Positions 10,236 through 58,538 of a stretch of DNA of 64,000 nucleotides are shown here, in pieces. A program made the translations under genes and the position numbers. This DNA is from Mesodorylaimus sp. YZB2_4 (Eukaryota > Nematoda > Enoplea > Dorylaimida > Dorylaimidae). Each line of letters opens with the position of its first letter. Within the stretch, counting starts at the first letter, position 1. The notes below the pieces were generated by a model. That model did not search any database and was not told the DNA's origin. It saw only the letters and a program-made list of their open reading frames with translations. Where the stretch lies: the NCBI GenBank assembly GCA_030248295.1, contig JASANH010000908.1, positions 248,001 to 312,000 of the forward strand. The letters are read 5' to 3'.

Positions 10236-12317
10236 ATGCGCTGCCTAATTGTGATCGCCTTGTGCTTCGTTCTGGCCAGTAAGTTTCCAAGCCTCCTACA
10301 AGCTCGATTTAAATTGCATGATTGTTCATTTTAGATGCCTTCATGCCATCCTACAACAAGAACCGTTTCCAACGGCTCTTGAACCGCTACCAGAATCGCT
10401 TCGATTTTGGTGACAACCTGCTCGGTTCTGATGAAGTCGACGACTACATCGATGACTACGTTGACCAGATCCGTCGTGAACGCATGTTCGAGCGCGACCA
10501 ATGCCCACGGGATCTCGAGGACATCTTGGGCTACGAAGATGAAGATTGGACTGGCGAGATGGACGACTTTTCTCGCGGCACTCAAAACTGGGGCTGGAAC
10601 TGGGGCTGGGGCGAGCAAGAATCCGAAATCCGCTCCCCATTGCTCAAGGAAGTGGAAGATGCCAACGTGAAATTGTGCAGCCAGCTGTACGAACAATCGA
10701 AGAACGATAAGGATGACAAGAACATCGTCGTCTCTCCTCTTTCCATCCAGTTGGCCTTGGCCGCTTTGAACATGGGTGCCCGTGGAAACACCAGACGCCA
10801 AATCAACCGTGTTCTCGGTGGTCGCTTGCAAACCCAAGCAAGCAAACAAGTCTTGAAGACTTTGCTGCGCCATTTGAAAGGACTTCGCAGCATTGACTAC
10901 AGGTACACCCGAGCATTCATTGTCCTCCACCCTCTGTACAATAGCGTTCTTTTCAGCACTGGCCAACATTCGACCAAGATCAACTGCGTGACTGGCATCT
11001 TCGTGTCCCAGACCACTCGTGCTCAACAACAATTTATCCAACAAATCAAGTCCAACTTGGGTGCCTCTGTCAAGCACTGCAGCTTCTCTCAGCAACCCCA
11101 ACAATGCCGCTCCAGCATCAACCAATGGATGGCCCAGAAGACGCACCACAAGATCAACCGCATCGTGCCCCAAGACGGCATCACCGACAACACCAAGATG
11201 GTTTTGGTGAATGCCTTGGAAATGAAAGCTCTCTGGGGACCTCAGATGCGCCGCCATGTTACCAAGGAAGCCAAATTCTACCCGCTCGACACCAAGAAAG
11301 TCAAAATCGTTGAGGTAAGCTCCCATTTCTGCAAAAATGACCCGCCTCGTTTGGTGCCTCTCTGTCGAAGGCAGAAAATGATAGCCTCAGATCAACAGAC
11401 ATGCAAAGCCTGTAAAGTAACTTGATTTAAAAACGACTCTACGTCATGTTTCAGGTCATGGAAACCGAGGGCCGTTTCAAGTACTACGAAGACGAATTGG
11501 TGAAAATTGTTGGCGTGCCCACGAAAGAACAAGAACTCACTTTGTACGCCATCGTGCCCAAGGACAAGGACGGATTGACCGAAGTTGAGAAATTGCACTT
11601 GCAAGATAGCGTGCAACTGAAACAACTTTTGGACAAGACCGATAAAAGAGTGCGCCGCGTCGAATTGCAATTGCCGAAATTCCAAATCAAGCACAAGATT
11701 GACGTTCGTCGCACTTTGCGCAAACAAGGTGTCACCGATGCATTCGACTCGCAGCGAGCCGACTTTTCGGGCATCACTGGCATCAGCAAGTACGAACAAG
11801 ACGAAATGGATGACAGCTACCAACAAATCAATCGCTTCCGTCGCACTCCATTCTTGGATACCGAATCCGAATATGGCTTTGTCGGGGACGAATGGACTGG
11901 CAGACGCGACACCAAACTGCACTTAAACAAGTTCATCCATCAATGCACCATCAAGGTACGAAAAGACCAGTTTTATCCTGTTTCAAAACAATGACTGAAA
12001 GGATGTCTTTTTAGATTACCGAAAATGGAATCACAGCCACGTCTGGCAGCCAAATGGATGAAGAATACGAACGCACCCAATATGGTCGCTGGATGGGCGG
12101 CTTGGAACTCGAAGGAATGGACATGTTCGATGAAATCTCTGGCTTGTACCGCCGTGAACCAAGTGGAGAGAAAGTAGTGAAGGCCAACCGCGCTTTCGCT
12201 TTCGTGCTGAAACACAACCCAACCAATCAAGTGGTCATGGTCGGTCGTGTCATCGACGCTGCCCAGAAGAAAGTCAATGAATTCGACCAAACCATCAACG
12301 TCGTCGATCAATTCTAA
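10236..12317 (+). CDS. secreted serpin with acidic tail and extended loop
   Basis: Four exons (10236-10278, 10335-11314, 11455-11955, 12015-12317) join in phase to 608 codons plus stop. Exon 1 encodes a signal peptide (MRCLIVIALCFVLA). Residues about 16-110 form an acidic, Tyr- and Trp-rich extension (VDDYIDDYVDQ, YEDEDWTGEMDD). The serpin fold follows: SPLSIQLALAALNMGARG, then LPKFQIKHKID, ADFSGITG and the C-terminal NRAFAFVLKHNPTNQ with VVMVGRVID. The protein is about 200 residues longer than a usual serpin. Besides the tail there is an insert of about 40 residues before the strand leading into the reactive loop, and the loop itself (after TENGITATS) is roughly 30 residues longer than in alpha-1-antitrypsin. 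The hinge does not match the small-residue pattern of inhibitory serpins well, so inhibitory activity is uncertain. Confidence 0.9.
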
Positions 12318-42259: not shown

Positions 42260-42263
42260 ACCA
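42260..42263. repeat. target-site duplication, copy 1
   Basis: ACCA directly abuts the outer end of one LTR and recurs at 50518-50521 beyond the other LTR. Four to six bases is normal for Ty3/Gypsy integration. Confidence 0.8.
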
Positions 42264-42497
42264 TGTAGTCGTGTAGGTATCCTACCTTGCCACGGGTCTG
42301 ATCCGGTGTTCGGTCTACGTGAAGACAAGAGACGAAGAGAAGGCGGCTGTTCTTGGCACAGGCAGCAACAGAGAGTGAGTAGGAAAAAAGGCATCCACAT
42401 GAACCAAAGAACGAGACAGGCCCAAACTGGTTAGACGCATAAATGAGACTTATGCTAATGAACAACCGGTTAGGCCATAAACCCCATTATCACTACA
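42264..42497 (-). repeat. 3' LTR
   Basis: 234 bases with TGTAG/CTACA inverted ends; identical to 50284-50517 except two transitions. It is the 3' LTR because the coding frames and the polypurine tract run on the minus strand. Confidence 0.97.
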
Positions 42498-43535
42498 ATG
42501 CCCCCTCCTGTATGTGCACACCCCGTTGTGCACCAAGAAACACTCCAAACATCGAAAAGCAAAAACAAACAAAACCAAAACCGTATGGGGCAAAAAGGAA
42601 AAAAAAGAAAAAGCAACGTTATCAACGACGACGACGACGACTGCTGCGTGGACGGTGATGGCTTCTGGGCTTATGCTGGTCCCTGCGACCGTGGCTGGAT
42701 TGCTGATCATTGCGCGAGGGAGATGGTGAGCGAGGGCGGGAGGAACGAAAACGGTCGTAACGTGGACGCTTGGACTTGGAGACTGAGAGGCGAGGCGATG
42801 AGGAGGTAATTGAGCCGATTCCGGTGACGGTGACCACTGATAACTGGCGGGTGATGGCCTACGCCCACCGGGCGATATACCGATTGCAATTGTGGATGAG
42901 GACGGCGAGGAGCATTCTGAACGAACCTCAACTGGCTCCAGGAGTTGATAAGTGCGATCCCGATCCTCCCGCGGCCCCACCAAGGCGCCACACGAAAAAG
43001 AATCGAACTCCAAACGGCGAAGACGCTGCTTGACCAGACGAGGAATCGCCTCATGCCTTGCTAGACCCCGGAAAGCCAAGAATCGCAAGCATAAGAATTC
43101 GAATCTGTCCCGATTCAGACCTGCCTCCCAAAAGGAACAAGCCGCCCAAACCAAGTAAGAATGCTCAAATTCACGCAGGTTCTTTCGAGACAACCCAGAA
43201 TTATCGAAATCCCGTAGGGTACGGATGGCAGGGGACCTGTAGACGCGATAAGCCCGTTTCAAAAGATCCCTTTCTCGATTAGAAACTGTGGTGCCCTTTA
43301 AAGGTGTCTCCCAGAATTTCGGGAACTGTGCATCCAGATCCTCTGATCCAGGACCCGGCAATGGAGGAAGATCTCGGGCCGAGGGAGGGGTCGCTATAGG
43401 AACCCCTGACGATAGCCGTCCACGATAGTTGTTGGTCGCTTGAGTGAATCGTCCCGACGGTGCGCCTACCAGGCGTGATTGAGGACGACTGACAGACTGG
43501 CGCCAACGACACTGACGCCCGAAACGATGACTCAT
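42450..43535 (-). CDS. third ORF in env position, Arg/Ser-rich tail out of frame
   Basis: A 361-codon frame after pol. Its ATG at 43535 is preceded immediately by a splice-acceptor-like tract (TTTTTGTGTGGTTATAG), and the LTR has a donor-like GCAAGGTAGGA, so expression from a spliced subgenomic RNA is plausible. The N-terminal 210 residues are basic and helical-looking (RDLLKRAYRVYRSPAIRTLR), not like a known env. The next part is Ser/Pro-rich. From about 42800 the neighbouring frame becomes strongly Arg/Ser-rich (RPRSPSPSRNDQQSSHGRRD, ending in five Arg at 42622), while the open frame turns hydrophobic and runs into the LTR. The Arg/Ser frame is probably the genuine C-terminus, which implies a one-base indel or frameshift. 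No signal peptide. Function unknown. Confidence 0.55.
   Translation of the reverse strand: MSHRFGRQCRWRQSVSRPQSRLVGAPSGRFTQATNNYRGRLSSGVPIATPPSARDLPPLPGPGSEDLDAQFPKFWETPLKGTTVSNRERDLLKRAYRVYRSPAIRTLRDFDNSGLSRKNLREFEHSYLVWAACSFWEAGLNRDRFEFLCLRFLAFRGLARHEAIPRLVKQRLRRLEFDSFSCGALVGPREDRDRTYQLLEPVEVRSECSSPSSSTIAIGISPGGRRPSPASYQWSPSPESAQLPPHRLASQSPSPSVHVTTVFVPPALAHHLPRAMISNPATVAGTSISPEAITVHAAVVVVVVDNVAFSFFSFLPHTVLVLFVFAFRCLECFLVHNGVCTYRRGHCSDNGVYGLTGCSLA
42501..42509 (-). promoter_or_regulatory. polypurine tract
   Basis: On the minus strand AGGAGGGGG lies three bases before the 3' LTR, where the plus-strand DNA primer of LTR retroelements is expected. Confidence 0.8.
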
Positions 43536-43670
43536 CTATAACCACACAAAAATAAAGATTAGTGATCATTTCAAACTCTGGAAGGACAACACAAAATTAA
43601 GTAATGCACTCCGGACAGCCGCCGCTAAACCGAAAACACAACACACAAAGTTCTATCAGAGCTGCAAAAA

Positions 43671-45494
43671 TCACTCCGATTCTATAGCTAAATTGCGAGC
43701 TTGCGATTCCGCGAATTGTTCCAGTTCTGCCATAGCCACTAGCAGGTGCTTTTTCTTTGGGAAGAGTCTATCTTTGTTAGCGAAATACTCCACAGTATCT
43801 TTCTGATGCACAAACGCCTGCCTGTCGTGATCTTTGAAGAAACAGACCAAGACCCACGGACCTTTGGATGATGGTTTGGGACATAGCGCTTCCGATTCAG
43901 GCAAGACGCGAGCAGGCCACCAAGGCAGATACTTCATTTTAGCCCATACCAAAGATCCAGGTTGATATGTCACTGACCCAGTGTTATCCGAATGATCCTC
44001 ATCCCCGTCTTCGGCATCGACCCATTGGTCATCTTGCACTGCATCTGCTGAACACGCTGCTATCGATTCCGATTCTGTCGCGGGTGTATGTGTTTTACCA
44101 CCAACTTCGCCTTGGTACAGTTGCAAGTGATTGACATGAACCACTTTGTCTGCTCCAGGTTGCATGATAGGTCGGATACATGCGGTGACTGGTGATGGCA
44201 TAGCGATAATACGATAAGGTCCCAAAAATCGGTCCAGTAGTTTGGTCGATAAACCTCGAGATGCCGCCAAACGGCTGATCATGACCAGAGAGCCAACTCT
44301 GAAGGGAATCTGATGAATCGACTTGTTGTACTGCCGAGCCTGTGCTTGTTGAGCCTTCTTGATTTCCTGAGTGACTACAGTGTACGCTTCCGCTAACTGC
44401 TGCTTCATCTGGACCACGTAATCGATATGCAAAAATTGTTGACTGCTATCCAACCCAAACGCGCGATTGAATGGAAAAGCCATGTCACGTCCATACACGA
44501 GCATTGCAGGCGAGTACCCGGTCGAAGAATGAACACTCGTGCGGAATGCGAACAAGGAATAAACAAGTCCCAATCCTGTTGATGTGCACTCGTATACACG
44601 GCTATGCAATCGATCAAAACTTTGTTGTATCTTTCGACCTGACCATCACACTGCGGATGATAAGCTGTGGTTGACAGTTTGCGAATATTCAGAAACTGAT
44701 AGATGCCTTTCATAAGTTCCGATGTGAACTGTGCATCCAGATCAGTTAAAATTGAGCGCGGACATCCAAAGCGACAGATAATGTCCGGCTCACTGCGGCC
44801 CCACGATGTCCATGCTCACTCGCTCGAATGGTGCTCCAACCGGAATCGAAATCAATGGTGCTTTACCCCACTGATGAGGAGACTTCCTTCTTGCGCAGAT
44901 CAGACACGATTCGCGGTACTGGTAAACATCTTTGCGCATACTTGACCAATACACCCGCTGTTTCAGACGTGTAAAAGTGCGATCTACGTCCATGTGACCA
45001 GCTAAAGGATCATTATGAAAGGCTGTCAAGACTTCTTGTTGCAAACTGACTGGCAATGCGATGACGGAACCCTCCGTGACTCGACCACGAGTGCGATAAA
45101 TAACATGATAACGCAAAACCGATCCAGGTCCATTTTGAAGAAAGTATGATTCCGCTAGCTTTGCCAACTCCTGATCTCCTGCCTCTCCCTCCTTCGTTTC
45201 CAGGAAGGTGATAATACGACCCAGAAAGGGGTCTTCGCGCTGAGCCTCTGTCAAAAGTGTATCGTCGATGAAAGCCAATTCATCCTCCGAAACGTGATTA
45301 TCCGACTTCATCTGATTTTCCTGCACAGTCTCTGCCTCCAAAGCTGCCAACCTGGCGTTGTAACACGCTGAAACTGAAACCAAATTGACTACGGGCACGT
45401 CCGATGTAGATGCAACTGGAAGGCGAGATAGTGCATCCGCATGACAGTGATTTTTACCAGGCTGATAGACGACTTTGAAATCGTACCCTTGCAA
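43671..45494 (-). pseudogene. integrase with C-terminal PWWP domain, broken core
   Basis: The N-terminal zinc-binding region is intact (HMDVDRTFTRLKQRVYW, then CLICARR). The core is damaged: only about 20 residues separate the first and second catalytic acidic positions where 55-60 are usual, so roughly 110 bases are missing near 44790. The middle segment (44405-44760) reads in another frame and the original frame resumes near 44570. The third catalytic residue region is present (HPQCDGQVER). A GPY/F-type module follows (LLDRFLGPYRI). Then a linker of about 60 acidic residues leads to a PWWP domain: GSLVWAKMKYLPWWPARVL at about 43957-43902, VCFFKDHDRQAFV and a helical end to the stop at 43671. 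PWWP domains bind methylated H3K36 nucleosomes in host proteins. Confidence 0.85.
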
Positions 45495-45497
45495 GCG

Positions 45498-48107
45498 TTA
45501 AACAAAACGACCCCAACGCGGGCTATCTTCGACCTCTTTTGTTGTATGCCAAGCAGTCAAAGCACGGTGATCCGTGTACACAATGGAATGACGAACCATC
45601 AGATAAGTGCGAAATTTCTTGACTCCAAAGAAGACTGCTAATGCTTCGCGATCTGTCGTGCTGTAATTCTTCTCTGCTGAACTGAGTGAGCGAGATGCAT
45701 ATGCGACGACCCACCGGGCGTCTGGCTCTTCTGGATGATATTGTTCCAAAACTGCACCCAGTCCCTCGCCTGATGCATCTGTACTAAGCGCGAATGGCAA
45801 GTTGAAATCTGGAAAGCGCAGAATAGGTTCTGATAACAAGACATCACGGAGAATTGTGAAAGCACGCGAACACTGCTCAGTCCATACGAATGCAGCTCCC
45901 TTCTTTTGCAAGTGAAACAGAGGCGACGCGAGAGCAGCAAAATTTTTGACGAGTCGGCGGTAATGATTGGCCAAGCCCAAAAACGAACTGAGTGATCTGA
46001 GGTCCGTCGGTTCGATCATGTTGCGTAATGGCGCTGTGGTCTCAGGGTCCGGACGAATACCATGTCGACTGACGATGTGGCCCAAAAATGGAACCTCTGC
46101 GCGACCAAAGTGGCACTTTGTGGGCTTGAGCTTCAGATTAGCACCACGAAATCGATCGAATACCATCTGCAGATCATGGATGTGATGATCGACTGATGAG
46201 GAAAAGATGATAATATCGTCCAGGTAAGCCAAGCACTGTTTCCAAGTCAACCCAGCGAGAAGAAAGTCCACCGCTCTTGCAAAAGTAGCCGGTGCGTTAG
46301 TCAAGCCAAAAGGCATGCGAGTCCACTCAAACAGTCCATATTCGCAGATGAACGCGGTCTTCTCGCGAGAACGTGGATCTGAAGGAATTTGCCAATATCC
46401 AGACTGCATATCGCATACGCTAAAGATGACACTGCCTTGCAAACGATTCAACAAGTCTTCGATTCGAGGTAATGGAAAAACATCCTTTTTAGTAACTGCA
46501 TTTAGCGCGCGATAGTCCACGCAAAACCGCCATGAGGAATCTGCCTCCTTGACCAATAGTGCCGGGGCAGCCCAGTCGCTGCATGAGTGTTGCAAAACCC
46601 CAGTCTCCAAGCATGCGTCGATCTGGCGTCGTAGTTCTTCTTGCTTAGCTTGGGGAACACGATAAGGCTGTCGGCGAACAGGAGGTGCGTCTTCAGTATC
46701 GATATAGTGATGAACGCCGGGCATACAACCCAAATCAGCGTCAGATTCTGCGAAGATGTCCGCATTATGACAAAGCAAGTCCAAGACCCTAGCACGCTCT
46801 TCCTCATTCAGACACTCGGATGAAATATCAAACCTAGGTCGCAGTCGGTTGACGCGAGCTGGATCTTGCTCTTCAGGAGGAGGTACCGACTTTGGTAGTT
46901 CTTGATACCGTTGCGCTAGTTCTTGAACGTGTCGATCAGTTGCATCCTCCATGTGACTCCCTTGAGCTCTGTGTACATTAGCAAGCGCACCGCGCGTGTG
47001 ATCATTGCCAGTGAATGCCTCGACTCCAAAACGAGATCGGATTTGCGCTAGAAGTGACTTAGGTGCTAAGTTGACGGTGTCAGCCACGTGCAATACCTCC
47101 CCTTCGATGTACGCTGGTGACTCCACCCGTCCGCAAGGTATACTGTCAGTCACAATCAATTCAGAATCACGGAAGTTAGTCACGCACACTGGAATGCAGC
47201 CATCCACATCAGGTTCGACCAACTCTGTAGGAATCGCGACACTGTACTGTTTTTCGAAAGCAGGATCCGGGGTGAACACCAAAGCATCTTTCATGGTAGC
47301 ATCGACTTTTGCTGGAAAAATTCTTTGACTCCTAGGAGGAATCTTCAACGGTTCCGCAGTGAGTCTCATCAAGCGAACATACGCTGATGCTCGACACAAG
47401 TCTGGTTGTACGAATGGAACTGTCTGTCCGTCCAACGGTGCTCTCGTGCATTTTACTGTATTTGATCCATAAGAAATTTCAGCACCAAATGCATGTAAGA
47501 AATCTGAACCGATGATCGCGCCACGATAACTACCACATATGACGTGTACTGGCCACTCAACGGTAACTGAGCCGAATGTGAGACCAACCAAAGATACACC
47601 CAAAAGGGGAACTTCGTCGCCAGTAGCAGCCTTGCAACTCCACAGCCCTTTGAAAAGCTTTACAGGCACCTTCCCACGATGTAGAACGTCGATGTGAACC
47701 AAAGACAACTCAGCACCAGAATCGACCAAAGCAACGACTTCGGCTCCGTTGACGTGCACCGTAACTTCGGGTGAGGATACTAGCTTAGCCACTGAACCAG
47801 ATGAATTCTCGTAGTTGACTCCATATGCATTTGAGATGACAGTATGAGCCAATGATGCTGGTAAACGAGGCGACTGCGGTGGTCGAATGATACCAGAGAA
47901 CATGTTCACGTGTCGCGACTGATGTGGCTGCGGAATGCCCACATCAGGCGGTGGTGCTGATGGTGTCGCGTATTGATATTGTTGTTGCGAAGCCTGTTGA
48001 GGGTGCGCGCTAGCTTGAGGCGGACAGTAAGTTGGTTGATACTGGTATGATGAACCACGTCCCCCGGACGTAGGAAGATCGCCACCGCGACCACGTGAAC
48101 TGTGCAA
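45498..48107 (-). pseudogene. protease, reverse transcriptase and RNase H segment of pol
   Basis: An open stretch of 869 codons bounded by in-frame TAA codons at 48108-48110 and 45498-45500. The aspartic protease motif is VALVDSGAELS (residue about 128). Reverse transcriptase shows FCVDYRALNAVTKKD and the catalytic YLDDII (about 628). RNase H shows LSTDASGEGLGAVLEQ (about 774) and continues past the 45498 stop in the same frame. Motif order and wording are those of Ty3/Gypsy elements. The domains themselves look intact; only the stops break it. Confidence 0.9.
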
Positions 48108-49869
48108 TTAAGGGCAAGACCGTCGGCTATGACCAAACCTATTACATTCTGGACATGGCACACGAACTGGACAGTGAGCGATCAAGTGACCCGGCTGCTT
48201 GCATTATGTGCAAATTTGCTGAGGGCGCTGTTGTTGTCGCTGATGCATGCGACCACTCGAACAGTTACGGCTGATGTGACCAGGCTGATGACACGAGTAA
48301 CACAATTGTTGGTCGGATGGCGATGCCTGCTGTGCACTCGAACCAGTCTGCCGCTGGAACTGCGCAAAATCACTAGAGATTGTACCATACTGTGCTGATG
48401 GTGGTATAAAAGATGTAGGCAACCCTGTCTTTGCGGATGTAGATGCACTTTGTTGGTTTGATTTCAGATAGGATTCCCAATGACGCGCGGCGTTGATCAA
48501 TTCGTCGAGAGTGTAGTTGTTACCCATGCGATCCTGAGCTACCCTGTCGGCGACATCAGCACGTAGATTTACACGCATGGTATCTCGAATCATCTTGTCA
48601 CGAGATGACTATAAGACCACTTGTCTCATTTGCATAACTTGGTCTTCATTCCCCCTTACATGACGACGGCACGTCCGGGTACGCTTTAGATGCTAAAGAC
48701 TGCAATTGCGATGCGAATTCCTGAACTGATTCCGAATGACCCTGCTTCCTGGTTTGAAATGCATCGACTCGCGTCTGCTCCGTGTCCTCGCGAATGTACA
48801 GTCGACGTAGGCGATTTCGAGCAACCTGCCAACAAGCGCGCTCGCTATCCGGCCATTCCGAAAAATCGATCAAAGGCTGACCTCGAAGATACAGATACAA
48901 ACCACGCACGCGATCGTGATCAGTCCAATCCATCATACTCGCGCCATTTTCGTAAGCAACAAGCCATCCCCTGAAATCTTGAGTAGGTAAATTCTCAAAA
49001 GGCGGAACCTCTGGCTTGATTGGACGAAACGATTTAGGAGCAGCTGATGCCGTAGGTGCACGTGACGGATCAGCCTTCGGCTGTTGCGTAACCACGGTTG
49101 GTTGAAGAACATACGGAAGCAACGATTGTGGGAGCTGCGAATGTAGTATGCGATCTTTGTTGTCCGACTCACGACTACTGCTACGCTGATCAGCAACCTG
49201 CTGTTGAGCCAACCGAGCTTTCAAATCACGAATCTCACCCTCGAGTTCCTTCTGCTTACAATGAGCGTGATGCAACTCTGTTAACTGACGCATGTTCTCC
49301 TCAATCGATGGTCGAAGCTGGTCGACGTCGCGACGATTGAGTGGTGGCGAATTGTGACGCTGATCTTGAAACTGCACTGGATGACGAGTGGGCCCGGCAT
49401 TCAGAAAGTCACGTTCCAACTGCGGCAACCCCTCGCGAGTAGGTATCGGAGTCAGATTTTGAACTGGGGAAAAAGACTGACCAGGAGAACGATTGCCCAT
49501 GGGCGGGTCGGCGTACAGAAGATCGAACCTACAGCCGTCCAAAAAGGCATCATCAATCAAAAAATTTGGGTTCAGACGAGCAATGTCTTCCCGGAAACGA
49601 GCGCGAATTCGAACGATCAGTTCGTCTCGACCAATGCGAGAATTGTCCAAAAGATTGTCGAGAGAAATACCCTTGTGTCCGCAGAAATTGATCAAGTACC
49701 TCTGAGGCAAACGATGCAAATCACGAAGAAAGTACTGCTGCGCGAGATCCACGTCATCAAGTGCTAACACTAGATTCGAACCATCGCCATCGCCATCTCC
49801 CTCTCCCTGCTGATCCTGAGCCTGTCCTGCCAACCTGGCGTTCACACTGAGATCCAGAGCATTCGCCAT
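48108..49869 (-). pseudogene. gag with CCHC zinc knuckles, frameshifted
   Basis: The first part (49869-48646) has an acidic N-terminus and a capsid-like region (WLVAYENGASMMDWTDHDR, ARNRLRRLYI, ESVQEFASQL) typical of retrotransposon gag. A frame change near 48650 and an in-frame TAG at 48609-48611 interrupt it. The downstream part (48593-48108) carries a clear CCHC knuckle (CYSCHQPGHISRNC), a second knuckle split by TAA at 48204-48206, and a third (CPECNRFGHSRRSC) just before the TAA at 48108-48110. This downstream part is in the same frame as pol. Confidence 0.88.
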
Positions 49870-50263
49870 TGAAGCCGGAGTAATGCCAAAAACCACCCGA
49901 TAATAGTCCAGCGCTGATGGTTGTTGGTCTCTCCCAAAAATATCTCCTGCGCCTTATCCACCGTGTCTACACTCAGAGAGAAAATCTTGTCATACCTGTG
50001 ATCAGCCAGCCACCGGCTGTATTGACGATACGAGCGTGTTGGCGATCACTGACCAGTTGCGCTTGCTTGACCGACTGGAGAACGACCGAATTGACCACCG
50101 TTCGTCCACTGACAAACGTCCGAATAACTGACTACTGACTGACCTAATGATGCTGACCAGTCACGTTTTGTCCAAAAAGATTGTCGATGATCGATTTGGG
50201 AGATTGATGCACAAGCCGCCGGCCGTGTGTTGCTAGGAAAAAGAAAAATCGGCAGAACGAAAG

Positions 50264-50281
50264 AACCGGGCCGACGCACCA
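50264..50281 (-). promoter_or_regulatory. tRNA primer binding site
   Basis: Two bases after the 5' LTR the minus strand reads TGGTGCGTCGGCCCGGTT. Its complement ends in CCA, as a tRNA 3' end must. Which tRNA is used cannot be told from the window. Confidence 0.65.
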
Positions 50282-50283
50282 GT

Positions 50284-50517
50284 TGTAGTCGTGTAGGTAT
50301 CCTACCTTGCCACGGGTCTGACCCGGTGTTCGGTCTACGTGAAGACAAGAGACGAAGAGAAGGCGGCTGTTCTTGGCACAGGCAGCAACAGAGAGTGAGT
50401 AGGAAAAAAGGCATCCACATGAACCAAAGAACGAGACAGGCCCAAACTGGTTAGACGCATAAATGAGACTTATGCTAATGAGCAACCGGTTAGGCCATAA
50501 ACCCCATTATCACTACA
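50284..50517 (-). repeat. 5' LTR
   Basis: 234 bases, ends TGTAG/CTACA, two mismatches against 42264-42497. Near its inner end the minus strand contains GCAAGGTAGGA, a candidate splice donor for the third ORF. Confidence 0.97.
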
Positions 50518-50521
50518 ACCA
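50518..50521. repeat. target-site duplication, copy 2
   Basis: ACCA directly follows the 5' LTR and matches 42260-42263. Confidence 0.8.
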
Positions 50522-54304: not shown

Positions 54305-57300
54305 TTACTGAGGCTTACCAAACCAAGGATTATTGAACATGAAGGGAGAAGGAGTTTGCGGCAGGAAACTAAATTTGGGCTGTTCAGGCTGGGCTGGGAA
54401 TTGCGCCTGGACTGGAGGTTGTTGGGGTTGTGGAGGGAAGAAAGCCTGCATTGGTGGCTGCTCAGGATGGAAAGGAAGCTGTAGCTCAAAACCCTGAGTA
54501 AATTCTAGCATGGGCGGCTGTGACGGAACTGACCCTATAGGTTCCATTAGCCCCTGTTGAAGTATTGGAACTTCAGGAACAAACAGATTTTGCGCCCTGG
54601 GCTGATTTTCGCTTTGACCCTCCTTGACGAAAAGTTGGGAAGGATCAGGTTGGGCCAAAGCATGGGCTTCTCTAAGGAAGTATTGGGACTGTGATTCATC
54701 AGCAGTCATTTCAGGTTTAAGCTCAGTTTCTTGCACCAGGAAAAATTTTGGAGGTGTTGGCAGACCTTCTGGCGTTGTAGCTGGTGGTAAAGAGTAAGTC
54801 TCATTGCCAGCTGGCGTCGTCGCTCTCTCTGTCGCATTACCAGCCGGCTCAGTCGCATTTCCTGCTGGTGTTGCGGCCCCCTCAGTGGCGCTGTCAGCTG
54901 GTGTGGCTGCTCCCTCGGTCGCGTTGCCAGCCGGTGTAGTGGCTTCGTCAGTGGCGTTGCCAGCTGGTGTGGTTGCTCCCCCCGTGGCATTTCCGGCTGG
55001 TGTTGTGGCTTCCTCAGTTGCATTTCCTGCTGGTGTTTTGGCCTCCTCAGTGGCGTTGCCACCTGGTGTTGTGGCCTCCACGGTAGCATTTACTGCTGGC
55101 GTTGTGGCTTCCTCAGTCGCATTTCCTGCTGGCGTTGTGGCTGCTTCTGTGGCATTTCCTGCTGGCGTTGTGGCCTCCTCTGTGGCGTTGCCTGCTGGCG
55201 TTGTGGCTTCCTCAGTGGCATTTCCTGCTGGCGTTGCGGCTTCCTCAGTGGCGTTGCCAGCTGGTGTGGTTGCTCCCCCCGTGGCATTTCCGGCTGGTGT
55301 TGTGGCTTCCTCAGTCGCATTTCCTGCTGGTGTTGTGGCCTCCACAGTAGCATTGGCTGCTGGCGTTGTGGCTTCCTCAGTGGCATTTCGTGCTGGCGTT
55401 GCGGCTTCCTCAGTGGCATTGCCAGCTGGCGTTGTGGCTTCCTCAGTGGCATTGCCAGCTGGCGTTGTGGCTTCCTCAGTGGCATTTCCTGCTGGCTTTG
55501 TGGCCTCCTCTGTGGCGTTGCCTGCTGGCGTTGTGGCCTCCTCTGTTGCGTTGCCTGCTGGCGTTGTGGCTTCCTCAGTGGCATTTCCTGCTGGCGTTGT
55601 GGCTTCCTCTGTCGCATTTGCTGCTGGCGTTGTGGCTGCTTCTGTCGCATTTCCTGCTGGCGTTGTGGCTTCCTCAGTGGCATTTCCTGCTGGCGTTGCG
55701 GCTTCCTCAGTGGCGTTGCCAGCTGGTGTGGTTGCTCCCCCCGTGGCATTTCCTGCTGGCGTTGTGGCCTCCTCTGTTGCGTTGCCTGCTGGCGTTGTGG
55801 CTTCCTCAGTGGCATTTCCTGCTGGCGTTGTGGCTTCCTCTGTCGCATTTCCTGCTGGCGTTGTGGCTGCTTCTGTAGCATTTCCTGCTGGCGTTGTGGC
55901 CTCCACAGTAGCATTGGCTGTTGGCGTTGTGGCTTCCTCTGTAGCGTTTCCTGCTGGCGTTGTGGCCTCCTCTGTGGCGTTGCCTGCTGGCGTTGCGGCT
56001 TCCTCAGTCGCATTTCCTGCTGGCGTTGTGGCTTCCTCAGTGGCATTGCCAGCTGGTGAGGCTGTTTCCTCGGTCGCGTTGCCAGCCGGTGTTGTAGCCT
56101 CCTTTGTAGCATTTCCTGCTGGTGTTGTGGCCTCCCCAGTGGCGTTACCAGCCGCTGTAGCCGCTCCCTCAGTCGCATTTCCAGCTGGTGTTGTTGCTTC
56201 CTCAGTGGCGTTGCTTGCTGGTGTGGCTGCTCCCTCTGTGGCATTGCTTGCTGGTGTTGTGGCCTGCTCAGTGGCATTGCCACCTGGTGTGGTTACCCCT
56301 TCAGTCGCATTGCCAGCTGGCGTTGTGGCTGCCTCTGTAGCATTGCCTGATGGTGTCGTCGCTCCCTCAGTAGCATTAGCAGCTGGCGTTGTGGCTTCCT
56401 CAGTCGCATTTCCTGCGGGTGTTGTGGCTGTTTCTGTAGCATTTCCTGCTGGCGTTGTGGCCTCCCCTGTGGCGTTGCCTGCTGGCGTTGTGGCTTCCTC
56501 AGTCGCATTTCCTGCGGACATTGTGGCTGCTTCTGTAGCATTTCCTGCTGGCGTCGTGACCTCCCCTGTGGCGTTGCCTCCTGGCGTTGTGGCTTCCTCA
56601 GTCGCATTTCCTGCTGGTGTTGTTGCCTCCACAGTAGCATTGGCTGCTGGCGTTGTGGCTTCCTCAGTGGCATTGGCTGCTGGCGTTGTGGCTTCCTCAG
56701 TTGCATTTCCTGCTGGCGCTGTGGCTGCTTCTGTAGCATTTCCTGCTGGCGTTGTGGCTTCCTCAGTGGCGTTGCCTGCCGGCGTCATAGCTTTCTCAGT
56801 GGCATTGCCAGCTGGTGAGGCTGTTCCCTCGGTCGCGTTGCCAGCCGGTGTTGTAGCCTCCTCTGTAGCATTTCTTGCTGGTGTTGTGGCCTCCCCAGTG
56901 GCGTTGCCTGCTGGCGTTGTGGCTTCCTCAGTGGCATTGTCAGCTGGTGTGGCTGCTCCCCCGGTCGCATTGCCAGCTGGTGTTGTAGTTTCCTCTGTAG
57001 CATTGCCAGCTGGTGTCGTTGCTTCCTCAGTGGCGTTGCCTGCTGGTGTGGCCGCTCCCTCCGTGGCATTGCGTGCTGTCGTTGCGGGCTTCCCAGTGGC
57101 ATTGCCAGCTGGTGTGGTTACCCCTTCAGTCGCATTGCCAGCTGGCGTTGTGGCTCCTTCAGTGGCATTAGCTGCTTGTGTTGTTGGGGCCTCTGTCGCG
57201 TTGACTGTTGGCGTTGTGGCTCCATCAGTTGCATTGGCAGCTGGCGTGGTCGCTCCTTCAGTGGCATTGGCACCTGGTGTGGTCGCTCCTTCAGTGGCAT

Positions 57301-58538
57301 TAGCTGCTGGTGTTGTTGGAGCCTCTGTCGCGTTGAATGCTGGTGTTGTGGCTCCTTCAGTAGCATTAGCAGCTGGCGTTGTGGTGCCTGCAGTTGCATT
57401 GGCAGCTGGTGTGGTCACTCCCTCAGTGGCATTAGCAGCTGGCGTTGTTGGAGTCTCCGTCACGTTGACTGCTTGTGTTGTGGCTCCTTCAGTCGGAATG
57501 CTTTTTGGGGTAGTTGCCTCAGTAGCATTTTTAGCTGATGGCGTTGTAGCATTTTTGGATGGCTCTTCAGTCACTGGCGAAACGATGAATGTGGCATTGT
57601 GTTCAGGAGCTGTTCCTTTCGTGACTTTAGGTTCTGGCGTTACTTGTTCAGTTGCGTTCAGCGTTGGTGTTGTACCTCGTGTAGTTCCACGTGGTGTTCC
57701 GAAAGGCACTGTGGCTGTGGCATTTCCTCCAGGGGTCATTTGAATACCTTTTGTTGGATTTGATGTTGCTGTAACTGTGGAACCCGTTGCCCCTGTGGGA
57801 GCTACAGTGGGAGACGTTGATCCTTCTTCTCCTGGTGTTGGTCTCTTCTTTCCGATAAGGCATGTCGTCTTGCTCTTCTCACTGCAGTCAGTATATTGAG
57901 TTACAGAGGAAGATTCACGCTCAATCACGCATTTTAGAAGTTTTGCGTCGCAGAAGCAACCCTTGTCCCTGAAAGATAGAGATTCGTAGGTCCTATCTGA
58001 GCGTCATATTGGCATCCGTCTGTGGTACTTACGAGAATCTGTCATTCTCTTTTAATGGACACCAATCGTTTGGCTCTCGCAATGAATAACAATCTGTGTT
58101 GTGCGCACATGTCTTAGATTGACCAGACGATGGCACATAAACACTATTTGGTTGTAATGACTTCAGTTGAGTACCAGACGCATCCTCTGGCTGAGGTTGA
58201 GGCGCTGGCTGTGGTTGAGCAGCTGGCTGAGGTTGAGGCGCTGGCTGTGGCTGAGGAGCTGGCTGAGGTTGAGGCGCTGGCTGTGGCTGAGGAGCTGGCT
58301 GAGGTTGAGGCGCTGGCTGAGGTTGAGGCTCAGGTGGCGGTTGGGGTTTTGGCTGCGGCTTAGGCTCTGGTTGTTGGGCTCCTGGATCATCAATATTCGG
58401 CCTTGGCGGTTGTCCGTTCGGTGCCACTCCATTGATAATTAAAGGATAAACACGCTGGGCATTGGCAAGCCATATTTGAAGGATGTATACGTATATGCAC
58501 AATAGTGCGCACGAATTCCAAACTGTGCGGGAGCTCAT
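54305..58538 (-). CDS. secreted mucin-like protein with eight-cysteine module (gene A)
   Basis: Two exons (58538-58033 and 57968-54305) join in phase 2 to 1389 codons plus stop. The ATG at 58538 is preferred over 58562 because a TATA box lies only 37-44 bases above the latter. A signal peptide ends near WLANAQR. The mature start (VYPLIINGVAPNGQPP) resembles gene B. Then come Pro/Gln repeats (QPAPQPQP), the eight-cysteine module (DCYSLREPNDWCP, intron, DKGCFCDAK, CVIER, YTDCS), and about 85-90 repeats of an eleven-residue unit close to TTPAGNATEEA. Most units contain the N-glycosylation sequon Asn-Ala-Thr next to Thr and Pro suited to O-glycosylation. A Pro/Gln/Phe-rich tail closes the protein. 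It would be a heavily glycosylated surface or secreted mucin. The module family is unknown to me. Confidence 0.88.
54790..57740 (-). repeat. 33-bp minisatellite coding for NAT repeats
   Basis: About 85-90 tandem copies of a 33-base unit encode the eleven-residue glycosylation repeat. Units differ by point changes (Glu/Gly/Ala/Val variants), and larger higher-order blocks recur, as expected from unequal exchange. The unit lacks stops in several frames, which creates long spurious ORFs on both strands. Confidence 0.95.
58163..58370 (-). repeat. Pro/Gln-coding short repeat in gene A exon 1
   Basis: Eighteen- and thirty-base units alternating CTGAGG and CTGGCTG motifs encode QPQPAP-type repeats, about seven copies, directly before the cysteine module. 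Confidence 0.8.

Follow-up and report, generated by a model that had tools for sequence, protein, structure and literature searches.

A PWWP domain at the C-terminus of Ty3/Gypsy integrases in a dorylaimid nematode, a probable chromatin tether

The window analysed here is a stretch of 64,000 nucleotides from the nematode Mesodorylaimus sp. YZB2_4 (assembly GCA_030248295.1, contig JASANH010000908.1, positions 248,001 to 312,000 of the forward strand). It contains a Ty3/Gypsy long terminal repeat (LTR) retrotransposon on the minus strand, spanning 42264–50517, in which the integrase frame runs on, past the integrase C-terminal module, into a PWWP domain. The same arrangement is found in many families of elements in this genome, and the domain probably serves these elements as a built-in chromatin tether. 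The relevant part of the window element comprises the following features (window positions).

43671–44645, minus strand: open frame of 324 amino acids (aa), the integrase C-terminal part and the PWWP domain (Pfam matches)
44115–44255, minus strand: GPY/F-type integrase C-terminal (SH3-like) module (Integrase_p58_C and SH3_Tf2-1, both below cut-off)
43959–44102, minus strand: acidic linker from the GPY/F module to the PWWP domain (read from the sequence)
43737–43958, minus strand: PWWP domain, residues 230–303 of the frame (PF00855; LEDGF best by phmmer against PDB)

A first-pass annotation, made from the letters of the DNA, had proposed a PWWP domain behind the GPY/F-type module of a Gypsy integrase. 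The profile search bears this out: PF00855 matches residues 230–303 in frame with E = 9.8e-14, at 52.1 bits against a curated cut-off of 25.6. The words from which the domain had been recognized (VWAKMK, LPWWPARV and FFKDHDRQ) and the acidic linker are all present in the sequence; in the relative L003 the 55 residues preceding the PWWP domain have a net charge of −11. A phmmer search against PDB sequences places LEDGF at the top (E = 2.5e-8), followed closely by the PWWP domains of MSH6 and of HDGF-related proteins. N-terminal of the domain, the integrase C-terminal module is matched by Integrase_p58_C [residues 142–174, 23.1 bits (cut-off 27), E = 8.1e-5] and by SH3_Tf2-1 [residues 131–177, 15.5 bits (cut-off 30), E = 0.019], both of which score under their curated cut-offs. 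The window copy is broken, with frames ending at 45498 and 44790 and a frameshift within the integrase, and its scanned frames give no Pfam match to the rve core. The 324-aa frame probably opens with residues that do not belong to the integrase reading frame, since most near relatives start aligning only at residue 25–27.

The genome of the same animal (145,146,385 bases in 1067 contigs) was searched for further copies. The 324-aa frame gives 145 match rows, which include copies 95–96% identical over most of the frame, groups at 53–80% and distant matches at 25–36%, many of the last extending into the PWWP part. PF00855 gives 149 rows, 148 of them flagged over the cut-off (one only together with its neighbours); the open frame around the match reaches at least 400 aa in 72 of the 149, at least 1000 aa in 35 and at least 1600 aa in 17. 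With 116 rows from the 324-aa frame search taken as integrase, 82 of the 149 PWWP rows are found at most 1.5 kb downstream of an integrase row on the same strand, and, conversely, a PWWP row lies downstream of 85 of the 116 integrase rows. The possibility of a chance match is ruled out by this recurrence together with the E-value of the window domain.

Grouping of the domains in context at 34 loci, together with the copies of the window's group, distinguishes at least eight groups, A–H, of which A is the window's and B–H are set apart by the signature around the PWWP motif, and two weaker ones, I (L095) and J (L099). Of ten frames scanned with Pfam, nine, from groups A–H, match both rve and PWWP at E ≤ 0.001 (the rve match of L098, truncated at the locus end, falls under its cut-off). 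The exception is L099, with a sub-cut-off PWWP match (24.5 bits) and no rve match. With the integrase core and the PWWP domain in a single frame in nine of the ten, a host gene that merely adjoins an element is ruled out. A one-off host capture, which the first-pass annotation would have read from a domain missing in all related elements, is excluded by the 149 PWWP rows and by rve/PWWP frames in several groups; many families in the genome carry the domain. The PWWP stretches of L006, L007, L008 and L009 are identical and their open frames reach 2153 aa, which indicates recent spread in a related group. A genome search with the window-type LTR returns 41 match rows, and of 17 further sites inspected together with 40 flanking bases, 12 have an exact 4-bp target duplication.

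Integrase and PWWP domain have diverged in agreement. With L099 left out, their pairwise distances correlate over 14 rows (Mantel r = 0.85, reached by 0 of 5000 permutations) and over eight group representatives (Mantel r = 0.47, reached by 91 of 5000). An integrase tree built from 21 rows separates the 15 with PWWP from the six without it, the support (62/86) not being strong, and a single gain of the domain is possible on this topology. For this tree 25 PWWP rows were considered, of which seven were dropped because fewer than 200 aa of frame precede the domain in the piece and three (L083, L090 and L095) because the upstream sequence is out of frame or is not integrase. The tree of the PWWP domain by itself is poorly resolved (two of 12 inner branches starred). 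Other Gypsy integrases of the genome (L070–L073, L075 and L077–L079) have tails of 56 to 193 aa past the integrase match in which no PWWP is visible, and the PF00855 search gives no PWWP row at these loci.

The ratio of non-synonymous to synonymous change (dN/dS) was calculated for 18 pairs by Nei–Gojobori counting with our own script. In the PWWP domain dS is measurable in eight pairs, five of which have a dN/dS of 0.08–0.22 and three of 0.33–0.78. The better-preserved pairs are under purifying selection, and in L061/L063 (PWWP 0.08, integrase 0.08) and L097/L098 (0.13 and 0.11) the constraint on the PWWP domain is about equal to that on the integrase. Within group C the PWWP ratios are 0.18 (L086/L087) and 0.22 (L087/L089). 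At longer distances the PWWP domain diverges faster than the integrase, with identities of 0.35 versus 0.78 for L069/L082 (groups D and E); for L097/L098 they are 0.70 versus 0.96.

To our knowledge, only the chromodomain is well described as a folded reader domain of retrotransposon integrases. It is found at the C-terminus of chromovirus integrases (PMC3605345, available in part). The elements described here resemble chromoviruses in joining a Ty3/Gypsy pol to a domain of histone-reader type at the integrase C-terminus (PMC3605345) and differ from them in that this domain is PWWP; the chromodomain model PF00385 has no match in the scanned window frames or in the ten related frames, and PWWP occupies its place. 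As PWWP sits where chromodomains sit, its role is most naturally read as targeting, and position together with constraint makes a chromatin tether the likeliest function of the domain. We consider it likely, on these grounds, that these are Ty3/Gypsy elements whose integrase ends in a PWWP domain acting as a built-in tether, which suggests that the elements choose their own landing sites. Within the intasome the PWWP domain would bind nucleosomes, contacting DNA and histone tail, and this binding would bias where a copy of the element inserts; PWWP would thereby hold not only the place but also the role that the chromodomain has in chromoviruses. We infer the binding to nucleosomes, the targeting and the histone mark involved. 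That mark is probably not the same in all groups, since the residues of the methyl-lysine cage differ.

Other integrases reach chromatin by different means. Lentiviral integrase is likewise linked to chromatin through a PWWP domain, that of host LEDGF/p75 or HRP2, but there a host cofactor that also has an integrase-binding domain supplies it (PMC4176367, available in part), whereas here it is fused to the integrase, which would make these elements a single-protein natural counterpart of the LEDGF–integrase partnership. In Ty5 (via Sir4p) and Moloney murine leukaemia virus (via BET proteins) a C-terminal tail of the integrase also targets integration (PMC4176367); those tails bind a host chromatin protein, whereas the tail here is itself a folded domain of reader type. 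A second reader-type fold in the place of the chromodomain, in many families of one genome, would mean that integrase tails are exchangeable for other chromatin readers.

The first-pass annotation had gone on from a targeting tail to a specific address, active gene bodies marked by trimethylated lysine 36 of histone H3 (H3K36me3). The placement of the tail agrees with targeting; the address is the weaker claim. The cage of LEDGF is formed by M15, Y18, W21 and F44 (PMC3663649, available in part), and 20 element rows were aligned to these positions. The place of Y18 is taken by L, V or I in group A, by H in B and F, by Q in C and H, by F in D and G, by Y in E, by K in I and by G in J. W21 has its counterpart everywhere but in B1, which has L, and in G, which has A; F44 has its own everywhere but in B2 and E, both with L, and in J, with Y. 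Position 17, a glycine in LEDGF, is occupied by Y, F or H in groups A, B and C. The canonical H3K36me reader cage (Y18, W21, F44) is thus absent from the window's group, which keeps W21 and F44. The PWWP fold is clear from the sequence; canonical H3K36me3 reading is not. As a special case of the tether, an H3K36me3 reader that steers insertion to active gene bodies is rather unlikely. It would suit the closest solved relatives, which include the PWWP domains of LEDGF, MSH6, HDGF-related proteins, DNMT3B and NSD2, the retention of W21 and F44 in the window's group, and group D, the only one of ten with aromatic residues at 18, 21 and 44 together. Against it stands the replacement of the Y18 equivalent in groups A, B, C, F and H: in LEDGF, changing M15 or Y18 to alanine strongly reduces specificity for H3K36me3 and affects affinity far less, whereas altering W21 or F44 abolishes binding, which may reflect misfolding (PMC3663649).

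If the pocket reads no particular mark, the domain could be a general clamp on nucleosomes or DNA that raises the efficiency of integration with little targeting. The cage is incomplete in nine of the ten groups, yet the domain is constrained in several, and nucleosome recognition by the LEDGF PWWP domain is driven by DNA binding (PMC3663649). However, PWWP and tail together carry a low net charge in several groups (+1, +2, −1), and the conservation of W21 and F44 may mean reading, although both are also core residues; we regard a clamp without mark specificity as unlikely. A service at another step, such as Gag–Pol assembly, nuclear import or shielding the element's own DNA from the intasome, would be in keeping with the faster evolution of the PWWP domain relative to the integrase seen in L069/L082. 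It is improbable given that LEDGF, MSH6 and the HDGF-related proteins, the named PDB matches, are chromatin-associated and that the position equals that of chromodomains. Least credible is a functionless passenger, a host exon captured by chance and spread by hitch-hiking. The broken window copy and the two PWWP pairs with the highest dN/dS would fit it, but recurrence and selection, in the form of many divergent families with open frames and of low PWWP ratios in five of the eight measurable pairs, largely refute it.

Several observations weigh against the tether itself. No integrase row of the 324-aa frame search lies upstream of 67 of the 149 PWWP rows; some of these are probably host genes (L100 may be one), and several others (L082, L084, L089 and L098 among them) share a frame with an integrase core too unlike the window's for that search. 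The incomplete cages count here as well, as do the two losses of the W21 equivalent. Synonymous change in the PWWP domain is saturated in ten of the 18 pairs; the ratio of 0.08 for L006/L016 has a dS of 2.55, near saturation, and the three higher ratios are 0.33 (L083/L050), 0.58 (L084/L090, dS 0.04) and 0.78 (L065/L076, dS 0.11), the last two of which say little or point to decay. A single-sequence AlphaFold model of the window domain alone has a mean predicted local distance difference test score of 44.8, too poor for use. Relatives from outside the genome add a further point, since none of the best 120 of 495 integrase relatives bears PF00855 or matches the PWWP model built here.

These 495 proteins were found among 7994 scored candidates with a profile of 12 integrase–PWWP pieces. 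The 324-aa frame itself finds none among 1070 candidates of the protein collection at E ≤ 0.001, and the PWWP domain as sole query none among 85; the protein searches admit only sequences of 0.55–1.75 times the query length, so that full polyproteins would escape them. The viral contig collection yields no relative, and the genome contig collection seven integrase-like loci, in bacterial records. Among the 120 relatives listed, five have a chromodomain and one, P0049, has a CW domain. This integrase protein of 713 aa (rve, H2C2 and zf-CW, PF07496) is similar in placing a domain of chromatin-reader type behind a Gypsy-type integrase; it differs in that the domain is a CW zinc finger instead of PWWP, and it is one protein among the 120. 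The first-pass annotation knew of no described case of the fusion, and among the papers listed by literature searches (in one of them 15 of 318, none of the 15 containing the word PWWP) no PWWP domain on a retrotransposon integrase is recognizable from titles and the beginnings of abstracts (bioRxiv preprints and most subscription papers lie outside the coverage). One candidate for a prior case, PMC3978060, concerns a fungal host gene in the part of the paper available.

A broader form of the tether may be put forward tentatively, with somewhat less than an even chance of being right: an old, radiating clade of nematode Ty3/Gypsy elements would have swapped its integrase tail for PWWP and diversified the methyl-lysine pocket, so that each family has its own chromatin state and niche. 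If true, such retrotransposons would encode their own chromatin address, and that address would evolve. With cage residues this varied, one can test whether target choice evolves through changes in the reader pocket.

The remaining features of the window element are given below in the direction of transcription.

50518–50521, minus strand: target site duplication TGGT, 5' side
50284–50517, minus strand: 5' LTR, 234 bp, begins TGTAGTGA and ends CGACTACA
50266–50281, minus strand: putative tRNA primer-binding site (probable; starts TGG, two bases past the 5' LTR, by sequence reading)
48646–49953, minus strand: Gag-like frame, 435 aa (by position and a weak, sub-cut-off match to PF03732, E = 0.028)
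48258–48305, minus strand: Gag CCHC zinc knuckle (PF00098, E = 4.2e-5, 23.9 bits against a cut-off of 20.8)
47493–47765, minus strand: retroviral-type aspartyl protease (PF13975, E = 4.8e-6, 27.5 bits, slightly under the cut-off of 28.2)
46071–46550, minus strand: reverse transcriptase domain (PF00078, E = 2.2e-34)
45513–45884, minus strand: RNase H domain (PF17919, E = 7.2e-31; PF17917, E = 4.3e-28)
44880–45053, minus strand: integrase H2C2 zinc-binding domain (PF17921, E = 1.2e-19)
42450–43535, minus strand: extra open reading frame (ORF) of 361 aa that follows the PWWP frame (Pfam gives no credible match)
42264–42497, minus strand: 3' LTR, 234 bp, begins TGTAGTGA and ends CGACTACA
42260–42263, minus strand: target site duplication TGGT, 3' side

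The order of the Pfam matches, protease (slightly sub-cut-off), reverse transcriptase, RNase H and integrase, is that of a Ty3/Gypsy pol, and the element has two LTRs and a short target site duplication. The Ty3/Gypsy integrase set of H2C2, rve and GPY/F is complete when rve is taken from nine of the ten related frames, the GPY/F module being sub-cut-off. The two LTRs differ at 2 of 234 positions; the insertion is fairly recent and the copy broken. The 361-aa ORF, which may be a third element gene, has 53 match rows in the genome, its own among them, with the remaining rows at 36–96% identity; in the less similar copies the matching region is mostly residues 1–246.

Elsewhere in the window there are Serpin matches in two frames of the plus strand (10322–11991) and a cuticle collagen N-terminal domain (PF01484), the latter in keeping with a nematode source; a search for the 22-nt nematode SL1 leader gives no exact match. 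At 54308–58003 very long open frames occupy the same, apparently repetitive, stretch on both strands (1232 aa on the minus and 981 aa on the plus strand). The genome also has 15 COX1-like match rows (G000:C73:251445-254668, C273, C741, C47, C1 and others), many of them short or with stops, which are probably nuclear copies of mitochondrial DNA because some sit on contigs of nuclear size.
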